DNA from: Bacteroidota bacterium
GTDB lineage: Bacteria; Bacteroidota; Bacteroidia; UKL13-3
Direction of reading: 5' to 3'
DNA length: 64,000 bases
NCBI GenBank assembly: GCA_947477885.1
Contig: CANJUD010000005.1
Coordinates: forward strand, 124,001 to 188,000
Shown: piece by piece, positions 1,473 through 53,851 of the stretch
Layout of the letters: each line of letters starts with the position of its first letter
Position numbering within the stretch: the first letter of the stretch is position 1
Program-made: the position numbers and the translations under genes
The notes under the pieces: model-generated
What the model was told of the DNA's origin: nothing
The model's database searches: none
Seen by the model: only the letters and a program-made list of their open reading frames with translations

Positions 1473-1497
1473 CGAATCCTGATTCCTGAATCCCGAC
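1473..1497 (+). repeat. Heptamer tandem repeat (CGAATCC type)
   Basis: Units CGAATCC, TGATTCC, TGAATCC and the start of a fourth (CGAC) follow one another with period 7. The same unit type recurs at 47908-47940 and, on the other strand, at 42583-42600. The rest of the 1388-1598 spacer holds only the hairpin repeat at 1415 and the topA promoter box. Confidence 0.6.
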
Positions 1498-10734: not shown

Positions 10735-11376
10735 ATGAAAGTAGAAATTTGGAGTGATGTGATGTGCCCATTTTGCTATATTGGGAAACGCAAATTTGAA
10801 ATAGGGTTGGAACAATTTGAGCATAAAAATGAAGTTGAAATTATATGGAGAAGTTTTCAATTAGATTCAAGTATACAAACAGATGCTACTAAAACTGTTC
10901 ACCAATTTTTGGCAGAGAGAAAAGGTATTAGCATGGAACAAGCTAAAGAGATGAATGATTGTGTATCCCTTGTTGCCAATGAGGTTGGCTTGATATATAA
11001 TTTTGATAACGCTATAGTAGCAAACTCATTCGATGCACATCGCTTTTCACATTTTGCAAAGCAAAAGGGATTGCAAAATGAAGCAGAAGAAATATTGTTT
11101 AAATCATATTTTACCGATGGGAAAAATACTGCTGATTATAATACACTAATCACTATTGGGAATGATATAGGTTTAGATGCTAATGAAGTAAAGCAAATGC
11201 TAGAAAATAACTTATTTACTGAAGAAGTAAAGTATGATATATATGAAGCCGAACAGTTTGGTATCAGTGGTGTTCCCTTTTTTGTGTTTGATAGGAAATT
11301 TGCGGTATCAGGTGCACAGAGCAGTGATGTTTTTTTACAGACATTGATTAAGGTTTGGGAGGATCGGGTGTTATAA
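10735..11376 (+). CDS. FrnE-like DsbA family oxidoreductase
   Basis: A 213-residue protein with a thioredoxin fold and a helical insertion. The CPFC redox motif is at residues 11-14 (SDVMCPFCYIGKR) and the cis-proline region is GISGVPFFVFD near residue 180. This pattern belongs to the FrnE/DsbA cytoplasmic thiol-disulfide oxidoreductases. No signal peptide is present. The ATG at 10735 is preferred over one at 10696 because the family begins directly with MKVEIWSDVMCPFC. It stands alone, divergent from the helicase gene. Confidence 0.88.
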   Translation: MKVEIWSDVMCPFCYIGKRKFEIGLEQFEHKNEVEIIWRSFQLDSSIQTDATKTVHQFLAERKGISMEQAKEMNDCVSLVANEVGLIYNFDNAIVANSFDAHRFSHFAKQKGLQNEAEEILFKSYFTDGKNTADYNTLITIGNDIGLDANEVKQMLENNLFTEEVKYDIYEAEQFGISGVPFFVFDRKFAVSGAQSSDVFLQTLIKVWEDRVL

Positions 11377-11445
11377 TGTCACCCCTTCAGGGTTTCAGTA
11401 TGGTTTATTTTTTTGAGGTAGAATAATGTCACCCCTTCAGGATTT
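11373..11445 (+). repeat. Two direct copies of the ATAATGTCACCCCTTCAGG repeat
   Basis: ATAATGTCACCCCTTCAG followed by GGTTT at 11373-11395, then the same word followed by GATTT at 11423-11445, spaced exactly 50 bases apart. Related copies are at 1415 and 54909 on the minus strand. The first copy begins at the FrnE-like stop codon. Confidence 0.75.
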
Positions 11446-11498: not shown

Positions 11499-11516
11499 AA
11501 AAATCAGGCGTCAGCC

Positions 11517-11600
11517 AAATCGTAAATCGTAAATCGTAAATCGTAAATCGTAAATCGTACATCGTACATCGTACATCGTACATCGTACATCGTACATGGT
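11517..11600 (+). repeat. Heptamer tandem repeat: 6 x AAATCGT then 5 x ACATCGT
   Basis: Twelve consecutive 7-bp units in 84 bp: six perfect AAATCGT, five perfect ACATCGT, and a final ACATGGT. The block switch from one variant to the other suggests expansion by slippage from two neighbouring variants. The array ends 4 bases before the stop codon of the convergent gene. The same AAATCGT unit recurs at 41234, 42732 and 44383. Confidence 0.97.
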
Positions 11601-23225: not shown

Positions 23226-23260
23226 CTCTTACTCCTTATTCCTTACCCTTCCTCCTTATA
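23226..23260 (+). repeat. Heptamer-like TCCTTAN tract
   Basis: CTCTTAC, TCCTTAT, TCCTTAC, CCTTCCT, CCTTATA run in approximate 7-base register in the 92-base gap between two convergent genes, reaching the tag stop codon. Confidence 0.45.
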
Positions 23261-23869: not shown

Positions 23870-23897
23870 CAAATTACGAATTATAAATTACGAGTGG
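23870..23897 (+). repeat. Heptamer repeat (CAAATTA/CGAATTA type)
   Basis: CAAATTA, CGAATTA, TAAATTA, CGAGTGG with period 7. Confidence 0.55.
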
Positions 23898-23948: not shown

Positions 23949-23986
23949 AATCCTTGGTCCTTGATCCTTGAATGTAATTCGTAATT
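23949..23986 (+). repeat. Two heptamer repeats in tandem
   Basis: AATCCTT, GGTCCTT, GATCCTT, then after GAAT two copies of GTAATTC, all with period 7. Confidence 0.6.
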
Positions 23987-34093: not shown

Positions 34094-34201
34094 TTAGTTA
34101 GAAAACAATCTTTTATTTTTTTAGTAAAAAGATGAATCTAATCTCTAAGTCCCTAAAATTGATCAAATAGTTGCTTCGAATATGAATTTAGTTATCAACA
34201 A

Positions 34202-34473
34202 AACCATTCGTATCAATCATATAAATGAGATGGTATAAAACGGAACCATTTGCCTTAATCCTATAAATGGGATGACATAAAATGAAACCACTTGCTTCAA
34301 TCCCATAAACGGGATGGCATCAAACAGAACTGTTAGCCTCAATCTTTATGAAGGGACGACATAAAAATAAACTATTCGTATCAATCCTATAAATGGGATA
34401 AAATAAAATGGAACCATTTGGTTTAATCCCATAAACGAGACGGCATAAAACCTAACCATTGGCACTTGATACC
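34202..34473. repeat. 42-bp minisatellite, six units plus a partial
   Basis: Units start at 34202, 34244, 34286, 34328, 34370 and 34412, each exactly 42 bp, with a partial seventh from 34454. Consensus begins AACCATTYG, continues TCAATCCYATAAAYGGGATG and ends GCATAAAANGG. Each unit has a central ATCCC-ATAAAC-GGGAT type hairpin that is partly kept in diverged copies. On the minus strand one frame gives a 14-residue pattern (FYxIPFxGLxQMV) but two units contain stops and there is no start. Confidence 0.92.
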
Positions 34474-34477
34474 AATT

Positions 34478-34512
34478 ACTATATACTTTATACTTACTAC
34501 TATATACTAACT
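34478..34512. repeat. Heptamer repeat overlapping the atpG stop
   Basis: ACTATAT, ACTTTAT, ACTTACT, ACTATAT, ACTAACT: five units of exactly 7 bp. The atpG stop codon (minus strand, 34507-34509) lies inside the last unit. Confidence 0.85.
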
Positions 34513-41145: not shown

Positions 41146-41150
41146 GGAAT

Positions 41151-41171
41151 TTAATGTTTAATGATTAATGG
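41151..41171 (+). repeat. Heptamer repeat (TTAATGN)
   Basis: TTAATGT, TTAATGA, TTAATGG with period 7, beginning 6 bases after the YihY stop codon. The same unit class appears at 42612-42639. Confidence 0.6.
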
Positions 41172-41230: not shown

Positions 41231-41233
41231 CTT

Positions 41234-41254
41234 AAATAGTAAATCGTAAATCGT
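41234..41254 (+). repeat. Heptamer repeat (AAATCGT)
   Basis: AAATAGT, AAATCGT, AAATCGT with period 7; the same unit as the 84-bp array at 11517. It ends 1 base before the ATG of the small gene at 41256. Confidence 0.75.
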
Positions 41255-42582: not shown

Positions 42583-42600
42583 GGGAATCAGGATTCGAGG
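42583..42600 (-). repeat. Heptamer repeat (CGAATCC TGATTCC)
   Basis: On the minus strand CGAATCC, TGATTCC, CAA, the same order of variants as at 1473. It begins 2 bases after the desaturase stop. Confidence 0.5.
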
Positions 42601-42611
42601 AGGATTTAAGG

Positions 42612-42639
42612 GTTAATTATTAATTATTAATGGTTAATG
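42612..42639 (+). repeat. Heptamer repeat (NTTAATN)
   Basis: GTTAATT, ATTAATT, ATTAATG, GTTAATG: four units of exactly 7 bp. Confidence 0.7.
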
Positions 42640-42674
42640 GGCTGATAGTTATGAATGATGAATAATCAGGCGTC

Positions 42675-43535: not shown

Positions 43536-44384
43536 ATGACAAGTAATATAAGAGAACTCAAAAGCATCGCATCTCAAGTTAGGCGTGATATAGTAAGAAT
43601 GGTGGCATCAGCAAAATCGGGTCATCCCGGTGGCTCACTCGGCTGTGCCGATTTTTTTACCGCACTCTATTTTGGGGTGATGGACCACAAACCCATTCCA
43701 TTTGATATTGATGGCAAAGGACAAGATATTTTCTTTTTATCAAACGGGCATATATCTCCGGTGTTTTATTCAGTGCTTGCACACAGTGGTTATTTCGATA
43801 AAAAAGAATTGGCAACTTTTCGTATGATTGATAGTCGCTTGCAGGGACATCCCACCACACACGAGCATCTGCCAGGTGTGCGTATCGCTTCGGGCTCATT
43901 GGGTCAAGGATTGTCGGTAGCCATTGGTGCAGCCACTGCCAAAAAATTAAATAACGATAACAAATTTGTATACTGCCTTTGCGGCGATGGCGAATTGCAA
44001 GAAGGACAAATATGGGAAGCACTCATGTTCGCCGGCCATAATAAAGTTGATAATTTGATATTGACCGTCGATGTAAACGGTCGCCAAATAGATGGTGATA
44101 CAAAAGATATCATGGGTTTCGAAAATCTGCGTAGCAAGTTTGAAGCATTCAATTGGAAGGTAATTGATATGGAAGGCAATGGTATGGACGATGTGATGAA
44201 CAAATTGCAAGAGGCAAAAACCATAAGTGGGCAAGGCATTCCCGTTTGTATATTAATGAAAACAGAAATGGGACAAGGTGTAAACTATATGATGGGCAGC
44301 CACAAATGGCATGGCATATTCCCCAATGCCGAGCAAACCGCCGATGCACTTTCACAGCTTGAAGAAACTTTAGGCGATTATTGA
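43536..44384 (+). CDS. Transketolase, N-terminal subunit
   Basis: A 282-residue thiamine-diphosphate-binding half of a split transketolase. The pattern SGHPGGSLGCADFFTALYF, the GSLGQGLSVAIGAA stretch, and the ThDP motif GDGELQEGQIWEALMFAGHNKVDNLILTVDVN are all present. The enzyme moves two-carbon units in the pentose phosphate pathway. Split transketolases need a C-terminal partner, usually the next gene; here the next gene is an acyltransferase, so the partner must be elsewhere. The end is intact (ETLGDY). Confidence 0.92.
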   Translation: MTSNIRELKSIASQVRRDIVRMVASAKSGHPGGSLGCADFFTALYFGVMDHKPIPFDIDGKGQDIFFLSNGHISPVFYSVLAHSGYFDKKELATFRMIDSRLQGHPTTHEHLPGVRIASGSLGQGLSVAIGAATAKKLNNDNKFVYCLCGDGELQEGQIWEALMFAGHNKVDNLILTVDVNGRQIDGDTKDIMGFENLRSKFEAFNWKVIDMEGNGMDDVMNKLQEAKTISGQGIPVCILMKTEMGQGVNYMMGSHKWHGIFPNAEQTADALSQLEETLGDY

Positions 44385-44430
44385 TGTACGATTTACGATT
44401 TGTCATGTTGAGCGAAGGCGAAACATACGA
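44383..44430. repeat. Heptamer plus REP-like element
   Basis: GATGT-ACGATTT-ACGATTT (the minus-strand reading of AAATCGT) overlaps the transketolase stop and runs straight into TGTCATGTTGAGCGAAGGCG..CATACGA, the same arrangement as at 35401-35450. Confidence 0.7.
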
Positions 44431-45800: not shown

Positions 45801-46838
45801 ATGTCCAATAAAAAATATAAAATCCTCGTAACCGGTGGCATGGGCTATATAGGCTCCCACACCACCGTTGCACTCATTGCCCAAGGCTATGAAGTTGTTA
45901 TAGTTGATAATCTCTCAAATAGCCATGCTTTTATATTAGACCGTATTGAAAAGATTAGTGGCATTCGTCCGACGTATTATAATATGGATGTGTGCGATGC
46001 TGGGCAAATAGAAAAACTATTTGCAGAAAATAATGATATAGCGGGTGTAATACATTTTGCAGCATATAAAGCCGTCGGCGAGTCAGTGGCCGAGCCGCTC
46101 AAGTATTATCATAATAATATTGGTGGACTTGTTACCTTATTACAAGCCATGCAAAATCATAAAATAAAGAACATCGTATTCTCCTCTTCATGCAGTGTTT
46201 ACGGTAATGCTACGCAATTACCAGTTGATGAAAATTGTCCCCTGCAACCTGCAGAATCTCCCTATGGAAATACCAAAAGAATTTGCGAAGAGATATTAGT
46301 TGATACCACAAAAACAGGGACAGCTAATGTAATTGCTCTAAGATATTTCAATCCAATTGGTGCCCACGAATCAGGACTGATAGGGGAGTTGCCAATTGGT
46401 CAGCCCAGTAATTTAATCCCAGTTATTACGCAAACCGCTGCCGGACTCAGAGATATGATAACAGTTTTTGGCAATGATTATGATACGCCCGATGGCACTT
46501 GTATACGCGATTATATACACGTAGTGGATTTGGCAGATGCTCACGTAGCAGCAGTTGCACGACTTATAGAAAACAAACAATTACAACCCTACGAATTATA
46601 TAATCTAGGAACAGGCGAAGGAGTTTCCGTAAAACAAGCAATCGATACTTTTGAAGAAGCAATAGGTGTGAAGGCAAACCACCAATGCGGTTCACGCCGC
46701 GATGGTGATGTAGTCCAAATTTGGGCAGATTGCACCAAAGCAAATAGTGAACTTGGATGGAAAACAAAAATATCTTTAAGTGATGCAATGAAATCAGCAT
46801 GGAAATGGCAACAAAACTTAGTAAACAGTGGTCAGTAG
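45801..46838 (+). CDS. galE: UDP-glucose 4-epimerase
   Basis: A 345-residue extended SDR enzyme that interconverts UDP-glucose and UDP-galactose. The NAD-binding GGMGYIGSH is at 12-20, the catalytic SSSCSVYG and YGNTK motifs are in place, and the C-terminal NLGTGEGVSV and GWKTKISLSDAMKSAWKWQ are typical. It supplies galactose donors for surface polysaccharides. The last codons and stop (AGTGGTCAGTAG) are part of an inverted repeat with the following heptamer array. Confidence 0.96.
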   Translation: MSNKKYKILVTGGMGYIGSHTTVALIAQGYEVVIVDNLSNSHAFILDRIEKISGIRPTYYNMDVCDAGQIEKLFAENNDIAGVIHFAAYKAVGESVAEPLKYYHNNIGGLVTLLQAMQNHKIKNIVFSSSCSVYGNATQLPVDENCPLQPAESPYGNTKRICEEILVDTTKTGTANVIALRYFNPIGAHESGLIGELPIGQPSNLIPVITQTAAGLRDMITVFGNDYDTPDGTCIRDYIHVVDLADAHVAAVARLIENKQLQPYELYNLGTGEGVSVKQAIDTFEEAIGVKANHQCGSRRDGDVVQIWADCTKANSELGWKTKISLSDAMKSAWKWQQNLVNSGQ

Positions 46839-46852
46839 CTGAATCTGCCGTA

Positions 46853-46901
46853 TGACTACTGACTACTGACTACTGACTACTGACTACTGTTTACTGACCA
46901 C
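46853..46901 (+). repeat. Heptamer tandem repeat (TGACTAC)
   Basis: Five perfect TGACTAC units (46853-46887) followed by TGTTTAC and TGACCAC. The end ACTGACCACT is the exact complement of AGTGGTCAGT at the galE stop, so galE mRNA can close a hairpin across the array. Confidence 0.93.
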
Positions 46902-46906
46902 TATAT

Positions 46907-47710: not shown

Positions 47711-47907
47711 TTATTTTTTACATCCTATAAAAAGTAAAAGAGAATTTCGAACAAGGATTAACGATTTTTGATTTAGGAAGTTTTTATTCTTCTATATGCA
47801 AGTTAGTTCTTGTTGATATATGCATTATATAATCAGGCGTCAGCAACTTCAAAAATCTACATTCGTTAATCCTTGTTCTTAAATCGCATTGGTCTGCCGT
47901 ATGGCCC

Positions 47908-47940
47908 CAAATCCCAAATCCCGAATCCTGAATCCCGACC
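47908..47940 (+). repeat. Heptamer repeat (CAAATCC/CGAATCC)
   Basis: CAAATCC, CAAATCC, CGAATCC, TGAATCC, CGACC with period 7, ending 2 bases before the stop codon of the convergent gene. The other spacer sequence at 47711-47907 includes AATCAGGCGTCAGC and a loose GATTAAC/GATTTTT/GATTTAG tract. Confidence 0.75.
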
Positions 47941-47942
47941 CC

Positions 47943-50900
47943 TTATTTCCATTCCGGAAACCTCCCCGGAGTATGCGGAGCTTTCATACTATCCAATTGT
48001 TTTTCCAATTGCTCTAATTGTGCTTTCACTTCTTTCACTTTATTATATATAGTTGCAAATTTACTTTCACACACAGCAAGTTTATCTTCATAGGTAGTTG
48101 TTTGTTGGGCAGAGGTGCTCCACAAATTCCCTACTATATTTTCTACTGAACCCAACAATCCGGGCAAGGTCTCAAACTCTCTTCTGGCAAGACTTCCATC
48201 ACCATGCATCCACAAGCTTATCATATTTAATCCTTCTTCAATTTGAGTAACTTGTTTATATAAATTCTCATCAGTTGAATTGATTTGTAATAGTCCAGCT
48301 TTTATATATTTAACTCTGTTTTGCATTTCACCAGTATATTCATTTAAACCTTTTACAATTCTTCTAAATTCTGCAAGTCTATTATTAAACTGTTCTAGTT
48401 TATTTCTATCAACAGCCAATGATGAATTGTTTAAGGTTATAATATTAAATGGAATATCAGAACATAGTTTTGTAATTGTATTTCCCTGCACCAATTCTAC
48501 GCGGACTTGGTATTTACCTGGCATTGCCATCGGTCCGGTCTCGGCACTTTCGTAGGGGTTGTCAGGGTCAGGTTTGTAGAAATTGATAGGACTTGTTACT
48601 TCCGAATGTCCATCCCATACTATATTATATAATCCTTTTTTTGCATCTTGTTTCAGTTTGCGAACGATGTGATTTTGCATATCCGAAATTACTAAAACGA
48701 TATAAGCAGCTTCTTCTTTATCTTCCAATCTTATTGAATCTTCTGAGGGGTAATATACAGCTTGCTTTGCTTTTACTTTTTCTTTCTCAGCTTCCTTTCT
48801 TTTCTCTTTGATTGTATTGTAATCATCTTTTATATAATAACGGATACTTGCACCATTGGCGGGGTTTTCCGTATTAAAGAAATTCTCGCCTTGGAACGAT
48901 TTTCCCTTGTGTCCATAGGGTGTTGAGGGATTAAAGACCAAACCATCTTTGATAGGAAATATATGGGCAGACTCTTTCAAATTATCCGCATTTATTTTTT
49001 GTAATATACTATAATCATCTAGTACATAAAATCCACGTCCAAAGGTTGCAATCACTAAATCATTTTCACGTTTTTGTATAGCAATATCTTTTACACAAGT
49101 GATAGGCAAACCTCCCGATAATTTTATCCAATTACTTCCACCATCCAAAGTAAAGTATATACCAAATTCAGTTCCCACAAAAAGTAAATTTGCATTAACA
49201 TGGTCTTCAGCAACGCAATACGTAGAGCCTCGTTCAGGCAATCCTTTGGATATGTTCGTCCATGTTTTTCCTTTGTCATTACTCTTCATGATATAAGGTT
49301 TAAAATCACCATTTCTATGATTGTTAAAAATTGCATAAACAATGTTTTCATTATGCATCGATGCCGTAATATTTAATACCAAAGTTTTATCAGGGACATT
49401 ATTAAATATTTCTGTTCTTGTCCAATTTTTTCCGCCATCAGTTGTAGTTTGTATTAAGCCATCATCAGTGCCGGCATATAATAAATTTTCATTAATTGGT
49501 GATTCACTCAGTGCAGTAATATTGCCATATATAGAAGTACTTTGATTCTTAGCAACCGCGTCCATACTCCATATTCTGTCCATCACGGGCAATTTATTTC
49601 TATCAATTTTTCTTGTCAAATCTTCGCTAATTACTTGCCAAGTATTTCCACGGTCATCACTCTTAAATACTTTTTGTGCCGCAAAATATATACGGGTATT
49701 TGAAAAATTACTCATCAATAATGGAGCATCCCAATTAAATCTATATGCCGATTCTGCTCTTTGTTCTTGGGGTCTGATATCAATTGCTTCTCCTGATTTT
49801 TTGTCATATCTCACCAGGCCTCCATACTGCCATTGCGAATATATTATATTAGGGTCTTTGGGGTCTATTATAGTTTCAAATCCATCACCACCTACAGTAA
49901 CAAACCAATCGGCATTGGTGATGCCGGTAGCACTAATGGTGCGGGATGGACCACCCAAAGTATTATTGTCTTGCGTACCTCCATATATATTATAAAATGG
50001 TACAGCATTATCAACTGATACTTTATAAAATTGTGTAATAGATAAATTACTTTTATAGTCCCAAGTTTTAGCATTGTCCCAGGTTTCATATAATCCCCCA
50101 TCACATCCCATTAATATATGTTTTACGTTTGCTTTATCAACCCATATCGCATGATTATCTACATGCTTATTTTTTTCGCCCACTTTGTTAAATGTTTTGC
50201 CACCATCAGTGGTCATCATAGCCCAGGTGTCCATCGAATATACTTTTTCTTGGTTAACGGGGTCGGCAAAAATTTCGCAATAATAATTTCCTGCGGTGGA
50301 ATGACCGCTGCGTTTCTCCCAACTTGCACCACGATCGGTTGAGCGATAAAAACCTTTTTCATCTTCTGTGGCTTCTATAATAGCATATATATAATCCGTA
50401 TTTACAGGTGATATAGCAATGCTCGCACGGCCCATGTCTTCCGAAGGTAAACCGCTGGTAAGCTTGGTCCAAGTTTCTCCAAAATCTACACTTTTATATA
50501 TGGCCGATTCAGGTCCGCCACTAATAAATGTCCATTCGTGCCTGCGGCGTTGGTGTGCAGTAGCATATAATATATTGGAATGGCGTGGGTCTATATGCAC
50601 CTCATTGCAACCCGTATTTTCTGATATATATAATACCCGTTTCCATGTGGTGCCACCATCAGTTGTTTTATATATACCACGTTCGCCACCGGGGCTCCAT
50701 AGTGGGCCATAGGCAGCGACATATATTATATTACTATTGCTTGGATCAATTTCAATTTTTCCTATATGTTCCGATGTTTTCAATCCCATATTTTTCCACG
50801 ATTTTCCACCATCTTCCGATTTATATATTCCATCGCCATATCCTACTGCACGTTGATTATTATTTTCTCCAGTCCCAACCCAAATCGTATTTTCATTACT

Positions 50901-51248
50901 CGGATCTATAGCCACACAGCCTATAGAATAAGAACCCTGCCCATCGAAAATGGGTTTAAAACTAGTACCCGCATTGTCTGTCTTCCATACTCCGCCAGCA
51001 CCCGCAGCAATATACCATTGCGATTTATTATTCAGATTCACCGCAATATCAACAATCCTCCCCGATGTAACCGCAGGCCCCACACTTCTAAATTTTAGTG
51101 AACCATAAGTATCTTTATTATTGATAGGTTCTTTTTTCTCTTCTTTCTTCTCCTCAGGTTTAACGGGCTTGGCAGGCGTTGTAGAAGTTGTTTGAGCAAA
51201 TGTATATATAATACAAAAGTTTAAAATAATAGTAAATATTTTTTTCAT
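47943..51248 (-). CDS. Large secreted Asp-box beta-propeller protein (VPS10/sortilin-like)
   Basis: An 1101-residue secreted protein with a signal peptide (IIYTFAQ) and a Lys/Glu-rich linker. About ten Asp-box (BNR) motifs follow, for example YKSEDGGKSW, YKTTDGGTTW, YRSTDRGASW, FKSDDRGNTW and YFTLDGGSNW, spanning about residues 120-740 and building propeller domains. The 770-950 region has an FlgD-like segment (YNIVWDGHSE, PGKYQVRVELVQG), and the end is helical coiled-coil. Such proteins are often labelled glycosyl hydrolase, but no catalytic residues are evident. The function is unknown, probably extracellular binding. Confidence 0.87.
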   Translation of the reverse strand: MKKIFTIILNFCIIYTFAQTTSTTPAKPVKPEEKKEEKKEPINNKDTYGSLKFRSVGPAVTSGRIVDIAVNLNNKSQWYIAAGAGGVWKTDNAGTSFKPIFDGQGSYSIGCVAIDPSNENTIWVGTGENNNQRAVGYGDGIYKSEDGGKSWKNMGLKTSEHIGKIEIDPSNSNIIYVAAYGPLWSPGGERGIYKTTDGGTTWKRVLYISENTGCNEVHIDPRHSNILYATAHQRRRHEWTFISGGPESAIYKSVDFGETWTKLTSGLPSEDMGRASIAISPVNTDYIYAIIEATEDEKGFYRSTDRGASWEKRSGHSTAGNYYCEIFADPVNQEKVYSMDTWAMMTTDGGKTFNKVGEKNKHVDNHAIWVDKANVKHILMGCDGGLYETWDNAKTWDYKSNLSITQFYKVSVDNAVPFYNIYGGTQDNNTLGGPSRTISATGITNADWFVTVGGDGFETIIDPKDPNIIYSQWQYGGLVRYDKKSGEAIDIRPQEQRAESAYRFNWDAPLLMSNFSNTRIYFAAQKVFKSDDRGNTWQVISEDLTRKIDRNKLPVMDRIWSMDAVAKNQSTSIYGNITALSESPINENLLYAGTDDGLIQTTTDGGKNWTRTEIFNNVPDKTLVLNITASMHNENIVYAIFNNHRNGDFKPYIMKSNDKGKTWTNISKGLPERGSTYCVAEDHVNANLLFVGTEFGIYFTLDGGSNWIKLSGGLPITCVKDIAIQKRENDLVIATFGRGFYVLDDYSILQKINADNLKESAHIFPIKDGLVFNPSTPYGHKGKSFQGENFFNTENPANGASIRYYIKDDYNTIKEKRKEAEKEKVKAKQAVYYPSEDSIRLEDKEEAAYIVLVISDMQNHIVRKLKQDAKKGLYNIVWDGHSEVTSPINFYKPDPDNPYESAETGPMAMPGKYQVRVELVQGNTITKLCSDIPFNIITLNNSSLAVDRNKLEQFNNRLAEFRRIVKGLNEYTGEMQNRVKYIKAGLLQINSTDENLYKQVTQIEEGLNMISLWMHGDGSLARREFETLPGLLGSVENIVGNLWSTSAQQTTTYEDKLAVCESKFATIYNKVKEVKAQLEQLEKQLDSMKAPHTPGRFPEWK

Positions 51249-53811: not shown

Positions 53812-53823
53812 TACTATACCGCC

Positions 53824-53851
53824 CCCAATCCCCAATCCTATATCCCAAGTC
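53824..53851 (+). repeat. Heptamer repeat (CCCAATC)
   Basis: CCCAATC, CCCAATC, CTATATC, CCAAGTC with period 7 in the purL to next-gene gap. Confidence 0.5.

Follow-up and report, generated by a model that had tools for sequence, protein, structure and literature searches.

The window, a 64-kb stretch of the genome of a Bacteroidota bacterium, contains tandem heptamers at the sites listed in Table 1, the largest being an array (the focus array) between two convergent genes. TRF and an independent lag scan both place arrays where the original prediction, made from the letters alone, had put them; about half of those arrays have only two or three units and fall below the lag threshold used for counting, and the one at 42583 is very weak. 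The unit families include CAGTAGT/CAGTAAA, ACGATTT/ACGATGT, TTAATGG, AAGGAGT and GGATTCN, among others. The heptamer copies in the window all sit between protein genes, not in a 23S rRNA helix, and the only Rfam matches in the window are two tRNAs. None of the copies contains a gene for S23p/IVP, the protein encoded in intervening sequences (IVS) of 23S rRNA genes, nor does any other part of the 64 kb. That the arrays are all intergenic, as had been stated, is nearly right; the exceptions are the arm at 46820-46838, which supplies the stop codon of a galE-like gene, and the array at 44383, which starts on a stop codon. In a spacer of the window, a 42-bp (and 84-bp) tandem repeat of about six copies with 70% identity (34201-34460) lies beside a heptamer array of period 21.

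Table 1. Heptamer arrays, heads and hinges in the window.
Feature	Position	Strand	Context
Short GAATCCT array	1474-1493	+	downstream of gene 689-1387
Head/hinge half AAAATCAGGCGTCAGCC	11500-11516	+	immediately before focus array
Focus array (AAATCGT)6(ACATCGT)5ACAT	11517-11597	+	between convergent genes; largest in window
Imperfect CTTACTC array	23228-23258	+	convergent genes on both sides
AATTACG array, weak taken alone	23872-23893	+	repeat scan
TTGATCC/ATCCTTG array, then two GTAATTC units	23951-23971	+	
TATACTT/TATACTA array, 21-base order	34464-34508	+	
TTTAATG/TTAATGG array	41150-41170	+	runs into GTTGACGC head
TAAATCG array	41233-41254	+	behind CGTCAGC head and CCCGATAGCTATCGGG palindrome; arm family differs from 41150
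TTAATTA/TTAATGG array	42606-42640	+	runs into GGGCTGATAG
GATGTACGATTTACGATTT array	44383-44401	+	begins on stop codon of transketolase-like gene (Pfam)
Left arm AGTAAACAGTGGTCAGTAG	46820-46838	+	last codon is stop of galE-like gene 45801-46838 (gene call, Pfam)
Right arm (TGACTAC)n	46853-46902	+	behind hinge TGCCGTA
Hinge TGCCGTATGGC and CCCAAATCCCAAATCCCGAATCC array	47895-47936	+	just downstream of minus-strand gene 47943-51248
CCCCAAT, 2.3 units, weak taken alone	53823-53838	+	12 bp past a stop codon

A seven-base period in spacers

Arrays were counted at a lag score of at least 10 and compared with dinucleotide shuffles of the same spacers. The spacers of the window have seven period-7 arrays, against a mean of 0.07 in 30 shuffles. 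A further 620 kb of the same genome, in stretches picked without regard to arrays, has 33 spacer arrays of period 7, 35 of period 14 and 12 of period 21, with 0.33, 0.67 and 1.0, respectively, after shuffling. By contrast, periods 5, 6 and 8-13 give only 0-2 arrays in the spacers of this sample, near background, and just five period-7 arrays were counted inside genes in 528 kb. Thus, the excess at seven bases over shuffled spacers, whose absence from the genome would have refuted the original prediction, is found in the tested 684 kb (sample plus window) of the 3.1-Mb genome. The longer periods, 14 and 21, reflect an alternation of unit variants, which suggests that copying often shifts two or three units jointly. 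With a fixed period and a variable unit, the arrays do not represent one transposed sequence, and this part of the original prediction holds.

Inverted arms, hinges and S23p genes

Inverted complementary arrays pair around the conserved hinges GCTGACGCC and GCCGAATGGC. Of the 62 sites of the motif GCTGACGC in the sampled sequence, 60 lie in spacers. The motif is one-sided: a heptamer array abuts its 5' side in most of the contexts printed. At the second hinge, GCCGAATGGC, arrays abut in the opposite sense, and the two hinges combined give the arrangement array-GCTGACGCCGAATGGC-inverted array. A hinge specific to the genus is present; GCTGACGCCTGATT, the reverse complement of the head before the focus array, occurs 33 times in this genome, 24 times in G001, seven times in G002 and in none of the rest of the 58 relatives. 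Two side observations concern inverted sequences of other kinds. Positions 47749-47764 and 47863-47878 of the window form an inverted pair with a non-heptamer arm (GAACAAGGATTAACGA) and have the head GGCGTCAGC in common, and therefore this head joins other arm types too. Moreover, a separate palindrome family, AATATTTCGTCCC(G/T)ATGGGACT, forms spacer stems of up to 29 bp in this genome (L030 8942-9016, L060 8475-8601, L298).

A pairing census covered 133 arrays in 100 of 570 spacers. An inverted-complement partner was found in the same spacer for 47 of the 133 arrays and a direct partner for three (score of at least 14). Inverted termini that form a stem, a trait of the IVS, are thus present in these 47 arrays, and the clearest pair of the window is formed by 46820-46838 with 46877-46895. 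Paired arms belong to one unit family, stems reach 31 bp, and folding yields near-perfect hairpins of 20-31 bp. The arms pair in unit order: when the order of units was shuffled in one arm, pairing dropped in 19 of 19 stems, and in every shuffle for 17 of them, a result that is supportive rather than independent in that these stems had already been selected for pairing. Because many strong arrays are the arms of inverted-repeat stem-loops with common hinges, they represent a class of dispersed elements and not free-standing repeats. The earlier reading as repeats of fixed period and free unit is correct in both respects and incomplete in leaving out these stem-loops.

S23p genes (PF05635; named four helix bundle protein, TIGR02436, in NCBIfam) are present in 54 of 58 relatives, and solved relatives of the protein are 2GSC and 2RLD, with five chains each. 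This genome has seven S23p loci, most with the same arm families as the spacer arrays, and in this genus 11 of 12 S23p loci have arrays, against a high array background there. In other Bacteroidia genera, the 200 bp beside S23p genes were scored at 36 loci, which are not fully independent by descent, with 416 random Bacteroidota genes as control. A score of at least 10 in the lag-7 family is reached at 16 of the 36 loci versus 21 of the 416 control genes (p=3e-10), while the neighbouring lags 6 and 8 reach it at one and three of the 36 loci; inverted flanks are present at 18 of 36 loci versus nine of 416 control genes. In another Bacteroidetes MAG (L150), heptamer arms surround a broken S23p-like reading frame. 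The dN/dS of S23p copies is 0.06-0.11, which indicates that the protein is maintained. As a separate observation on polarity relative to the S23p gene (loci L225-L297), G-rich arms predominate on the 5' side (21 of 27) and C-rich arms on the 3' side (15 of 21).

The association extends beyond the Bacteroidota. Heptamers flank 12 of 15 S23p loci on cyanobacterial plasmids, examples of the flanking units being AGTAGGG/TCCCTAC in Nostoc edaphicum, AGGGTGT/CTACACCC in Calothrix brevissima and ACAGGTG/CTGTCACC in Anabaena 90. More generally, an inverted partner exists for seven of 21 arrays in cyanobacterial plasmid spacers, and a direct partner for none. In Azospirillum lipoferum (L297), arms of the CAGAGGACGGATGA type surround S23p and Rfam places the locus inside a 23S rRNA gene; this locus is a canonical IVS with heptamer arms. 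Similarly, in the IVS of Coxiella burnetii, two or three tandem GACAGAT heptamers, depending on the strain, precede S23p, and the 28-bp terminal stem is cut by RNase III (PMC4990558). Some S23p genes of cyanobacterial plasmids (L282, L292, L290) are located inside CRISPR operons, which are of type I-D in two genera (S23p being flanked by cas6 and cas4) and of type III-B in a third genus (S23p being flanked by cas10 and cmr3).

Between sister species, elements are gained and lost and their arms change in concert. At the focus site, the convergent genes are shared with G001 (protein identities of 70 and 77%), as is the head, but the array in G001 consists of about 14 perfect AAATCGT units instead of six AAATCGT and five ACATCGT units; thus, the element was inherited and its array rewritten. 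At the site orthologous to 41233-41254, G002 has a related but diverged sequence. Among 58 orthologous spacers, six have arrays in both species, nine in one species only and 43 in neither, and at orthologous sites the presence, unit family and length of arrays vary. Arm units are altered on both sides together (L073 5058 vs L103), the orientation of the hinge is inverted (L036 vs L212), or one arm is greatly lengthened (L067 vs L216; G002 L222 vs L073). The S23p gene varies as well. Between GldN-like and Cox15-like genes, G000 has the order arm-S23p-arm-hinge-arm, with an internal stop in S23p, and G002 also has S23p, while G001 has the hairpin alone (AGGAGTAAGGAGTAAGG-gccattcggcgtcagc-TCCTTATTCCTTATTCCTTA) and no S23p. 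G001 has a related S23p elsewhere, flanked by LutA- and RuvB-like genes, at a site without S23p in G000 and G002, and between PduO-like and IspG-like genes G000 has S23p and G001 and G002 have differing arrays without the gene.

Proposed origin and spread of the arrays

Based on these data, we suggest that the heptamer arrays probably form the stems of stem-loop elements of the IVS/S23p type that are dispersed in the genome, most copies here being gene-less. The anatomy of inverted heptamer arms and the association with S23p are well supported. In the mechanism that we propose, S23p would act in trans and spread or maintain a few coding and many gene-less copies. Arms would grow and shrink by slippage in steps of seven and would remain matched through hairpin-templated correction or through unequal exchange, with the result that the unit drifts and the period stays. 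The transcribed stem would presumably be an RNase III substrate, as in the IVS, and processing by this enzyme would make insertion in rRNA or 3' untranslated sequence tolerable. Candidates for what fixes the number seven are a binding step either of S23p or of the host polymerase. The genome has no PF00078 (reverse transcriptase) match, which argues against a retro-mechanism of the elements' own.

Several observations count against such IVS-type elements. About two thirds of the arrays are without a good partner in the same spacer, including the focus array, for which a partner arm was looked for and none found; decay and independent slippage are both possible causes. At half of the S23p loci in other genera, no array reaches the threshold. 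The position of S23p in this genus is not simply in the loop but inside an arm, with arrays of the same orientation on both sides, an arrangement that would provide a simple recombination route to its loss. In a comparison of four S23p-free with four S23p-rich genomes, arrays were few overall and the difference was driven by one genome, so that absence of arrays from the S23p-free genomes could not be shown. Finally, the window is devoid of S23p genes, and the gain and loss seen here are between sister species, no transposition having been detected inside any single species.

Three other explanations have to be weighed against IVS-type elements. Under plain replication slippage, as proposed by Mrazek et al. 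2007 (cited in PMC4679880), the stretch of template that the polymerase holds would favour units of seven, selection would clear genes of arrays, and pairing and S23p would be incidental. The differing array lengths in sister species and the many partnerless arrays fit this explanation; however, slippage predicts neither the predominance of inverted over direct partners (47 to 3), nor common hinges and matched unit order, nor the array enrichment beside S23p genes in other genera, and we regard it as unlikely. Alternatively, a Y1 transposase (RAYT/IS200-type) could have mobilised the elements as REP-like palindromes, with the heptamers secondary and the GGCGTC hinge perhaps a CGTC tag. This genome has four Y1 matches, CGTC-tagged REPs have been reported in Bacteroidetes (PMC3733652), and GGCGTC adjoins not only heptamer arms but also REP-like hairpins, e.g. 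ATGGTTCGACTACGCTCACCAC. Nevertheless, the Y1 genes inspected carry other palindromes on their flanks, e.g. AACCCCGAAGGGGTGACA, and on this ground mobilisation by Y1/RAYT was rejected; moreover, CGTC REPs have stems of 8-9 bp and no transposase (PMC3733652), the heptamer stems being longer and variable, and S23p loci elsewhere have heptamers but not the GGCGTC hinge. Altogether, we judge a Y1-driven origin improbable. Two copies of GTCACCCCTTCAGGG in the window (11375-11390 and 11428-11443) are akin to the palindrome AACCCCGAAGGGGTGACA, which flanks the Y1 gene at L098 10237-10701.

The placement of the arrays, mostly just past stop codons, would fit functional 3'-end hairpins kept by host selection for transcription termination or mRNA stability. 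In tandem spacers, the median distance from the upstream stop codon to the start of the array is 12 bp, and 26 of 44 arrays start within 20 bp; divergent spacers have arrays half as often (11% vs 21%). However, tolerance accounts for this placement equally well, and a conserved function is at odds with the variation at orthologous sites. A T-run lies beside the stem in only six of 31 heptameric hairpins, and most arrays are therefore not intrinsic terminators, an identity that was rejected; terminator-like sites between 41000 and 48200 of the window are at shuffle level. Host selection for a 3'-end function thus seems very improbable as the explanation of the arrays.

Known repeats and broader meaning

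The heptamer excess as such, some Bacteroidetes included, and the IVS with S23p are already known. The original prediction knew of no established description of heptamer repeats in Bacteroidota, but such descriptions exist: TAACTGA arrays have been described in five Bacteroidetes, in spacers that also contain direct repeats of other heptamers (PMC4679880), and in most genomes rich in long simple repeats heptanucleotides are said to be the commonest class of these (Mrazek et al. 2007, cited in PMC4679880). The elements studied here resemble the 23S rRNA IVS with S23p/IVP (PF05635, TIGR02436; Coxiella, PMC4990558) in the stem-loop of inverted termini, the heptamers in or beside the stem and the S23p of coding copies; they differ in lying between protein genes, mostly without S23p, and in their far longer arms and genus-specific hinge. 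The heptanucleotide STRRs of filamentous cyanobacteria and the GGGNATC repeats of Xanthomonas and Nostoc (PMC4692102) are likewise intergenic tandem heptamers of several units near stop codons, but were published as direct repeats or G-quadruplex formers, with no inverted pairing or S23p noted. Spacer heptamers with several unit sequences, the STRR trait, are present here, which does not imply common descent with the cyanobacterial arrays. Compared by description, the TAACTGA repeats of Beggiatoaceae, Cyanobacteria and the five Bacteroidetes (PMC4679880) are also spacer heptamers that vary among relatives and in part overlap stop codons; unlike the present arrays, they have one unit, lie mostly just upstream of start codons and were reported without pairing. 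REPs and the GTAG- and CGTC-tagged palindromes (PMC3733652) share the extragenic position downstream of genes, the inverted dimers and a conserved tag near the hinge, but are units of 20-40 bp without heptamers, and the GTAG class is linked to transposases of the RAYT kind. Avd of diversity-generating retroelements is a distant relative, S23p of Nostoc edaphicum matching NF033474 below the cut-off; by contrast with such retroelements, this genome has no reverse transcriptase match. In the literature, we found no link of heptamers to S23p beyond the Coxiella IVS paper (PMC4990558) and no description of spacer heptamers as paired arms of IVS-like elements across phyla.

More tentatively, we speculate that the heptamers of cyanobacteria, Bacteroidota and some Proteobacteria could be the arms of mobile hairpins that belong to a single ancient class. 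S23p, an Avd relative, would be its only protein, measuring the seven-nucleotide step and driving gene-less spread without a transposase or reverse transcriptase of its own; we consider this doubtful, if possible. Heptamers in cyanobacteria, Xanthomonas, Beggiatoaceae and a few Bacteroidetes have been reported separately and without an agreed cause, and a common origin is possible. Inverted heptamer arms with or without S23p would help to explain how a constant period is combined with a free unit. If true, the shared anatomy would also connect S23p, a widespread “four helix bundle protein”, to the heptamer puzzle and allow the role of this protein to be tested directly, and selfish hairpins would have a route to rewrite the 3' ends and stop codons of genes.
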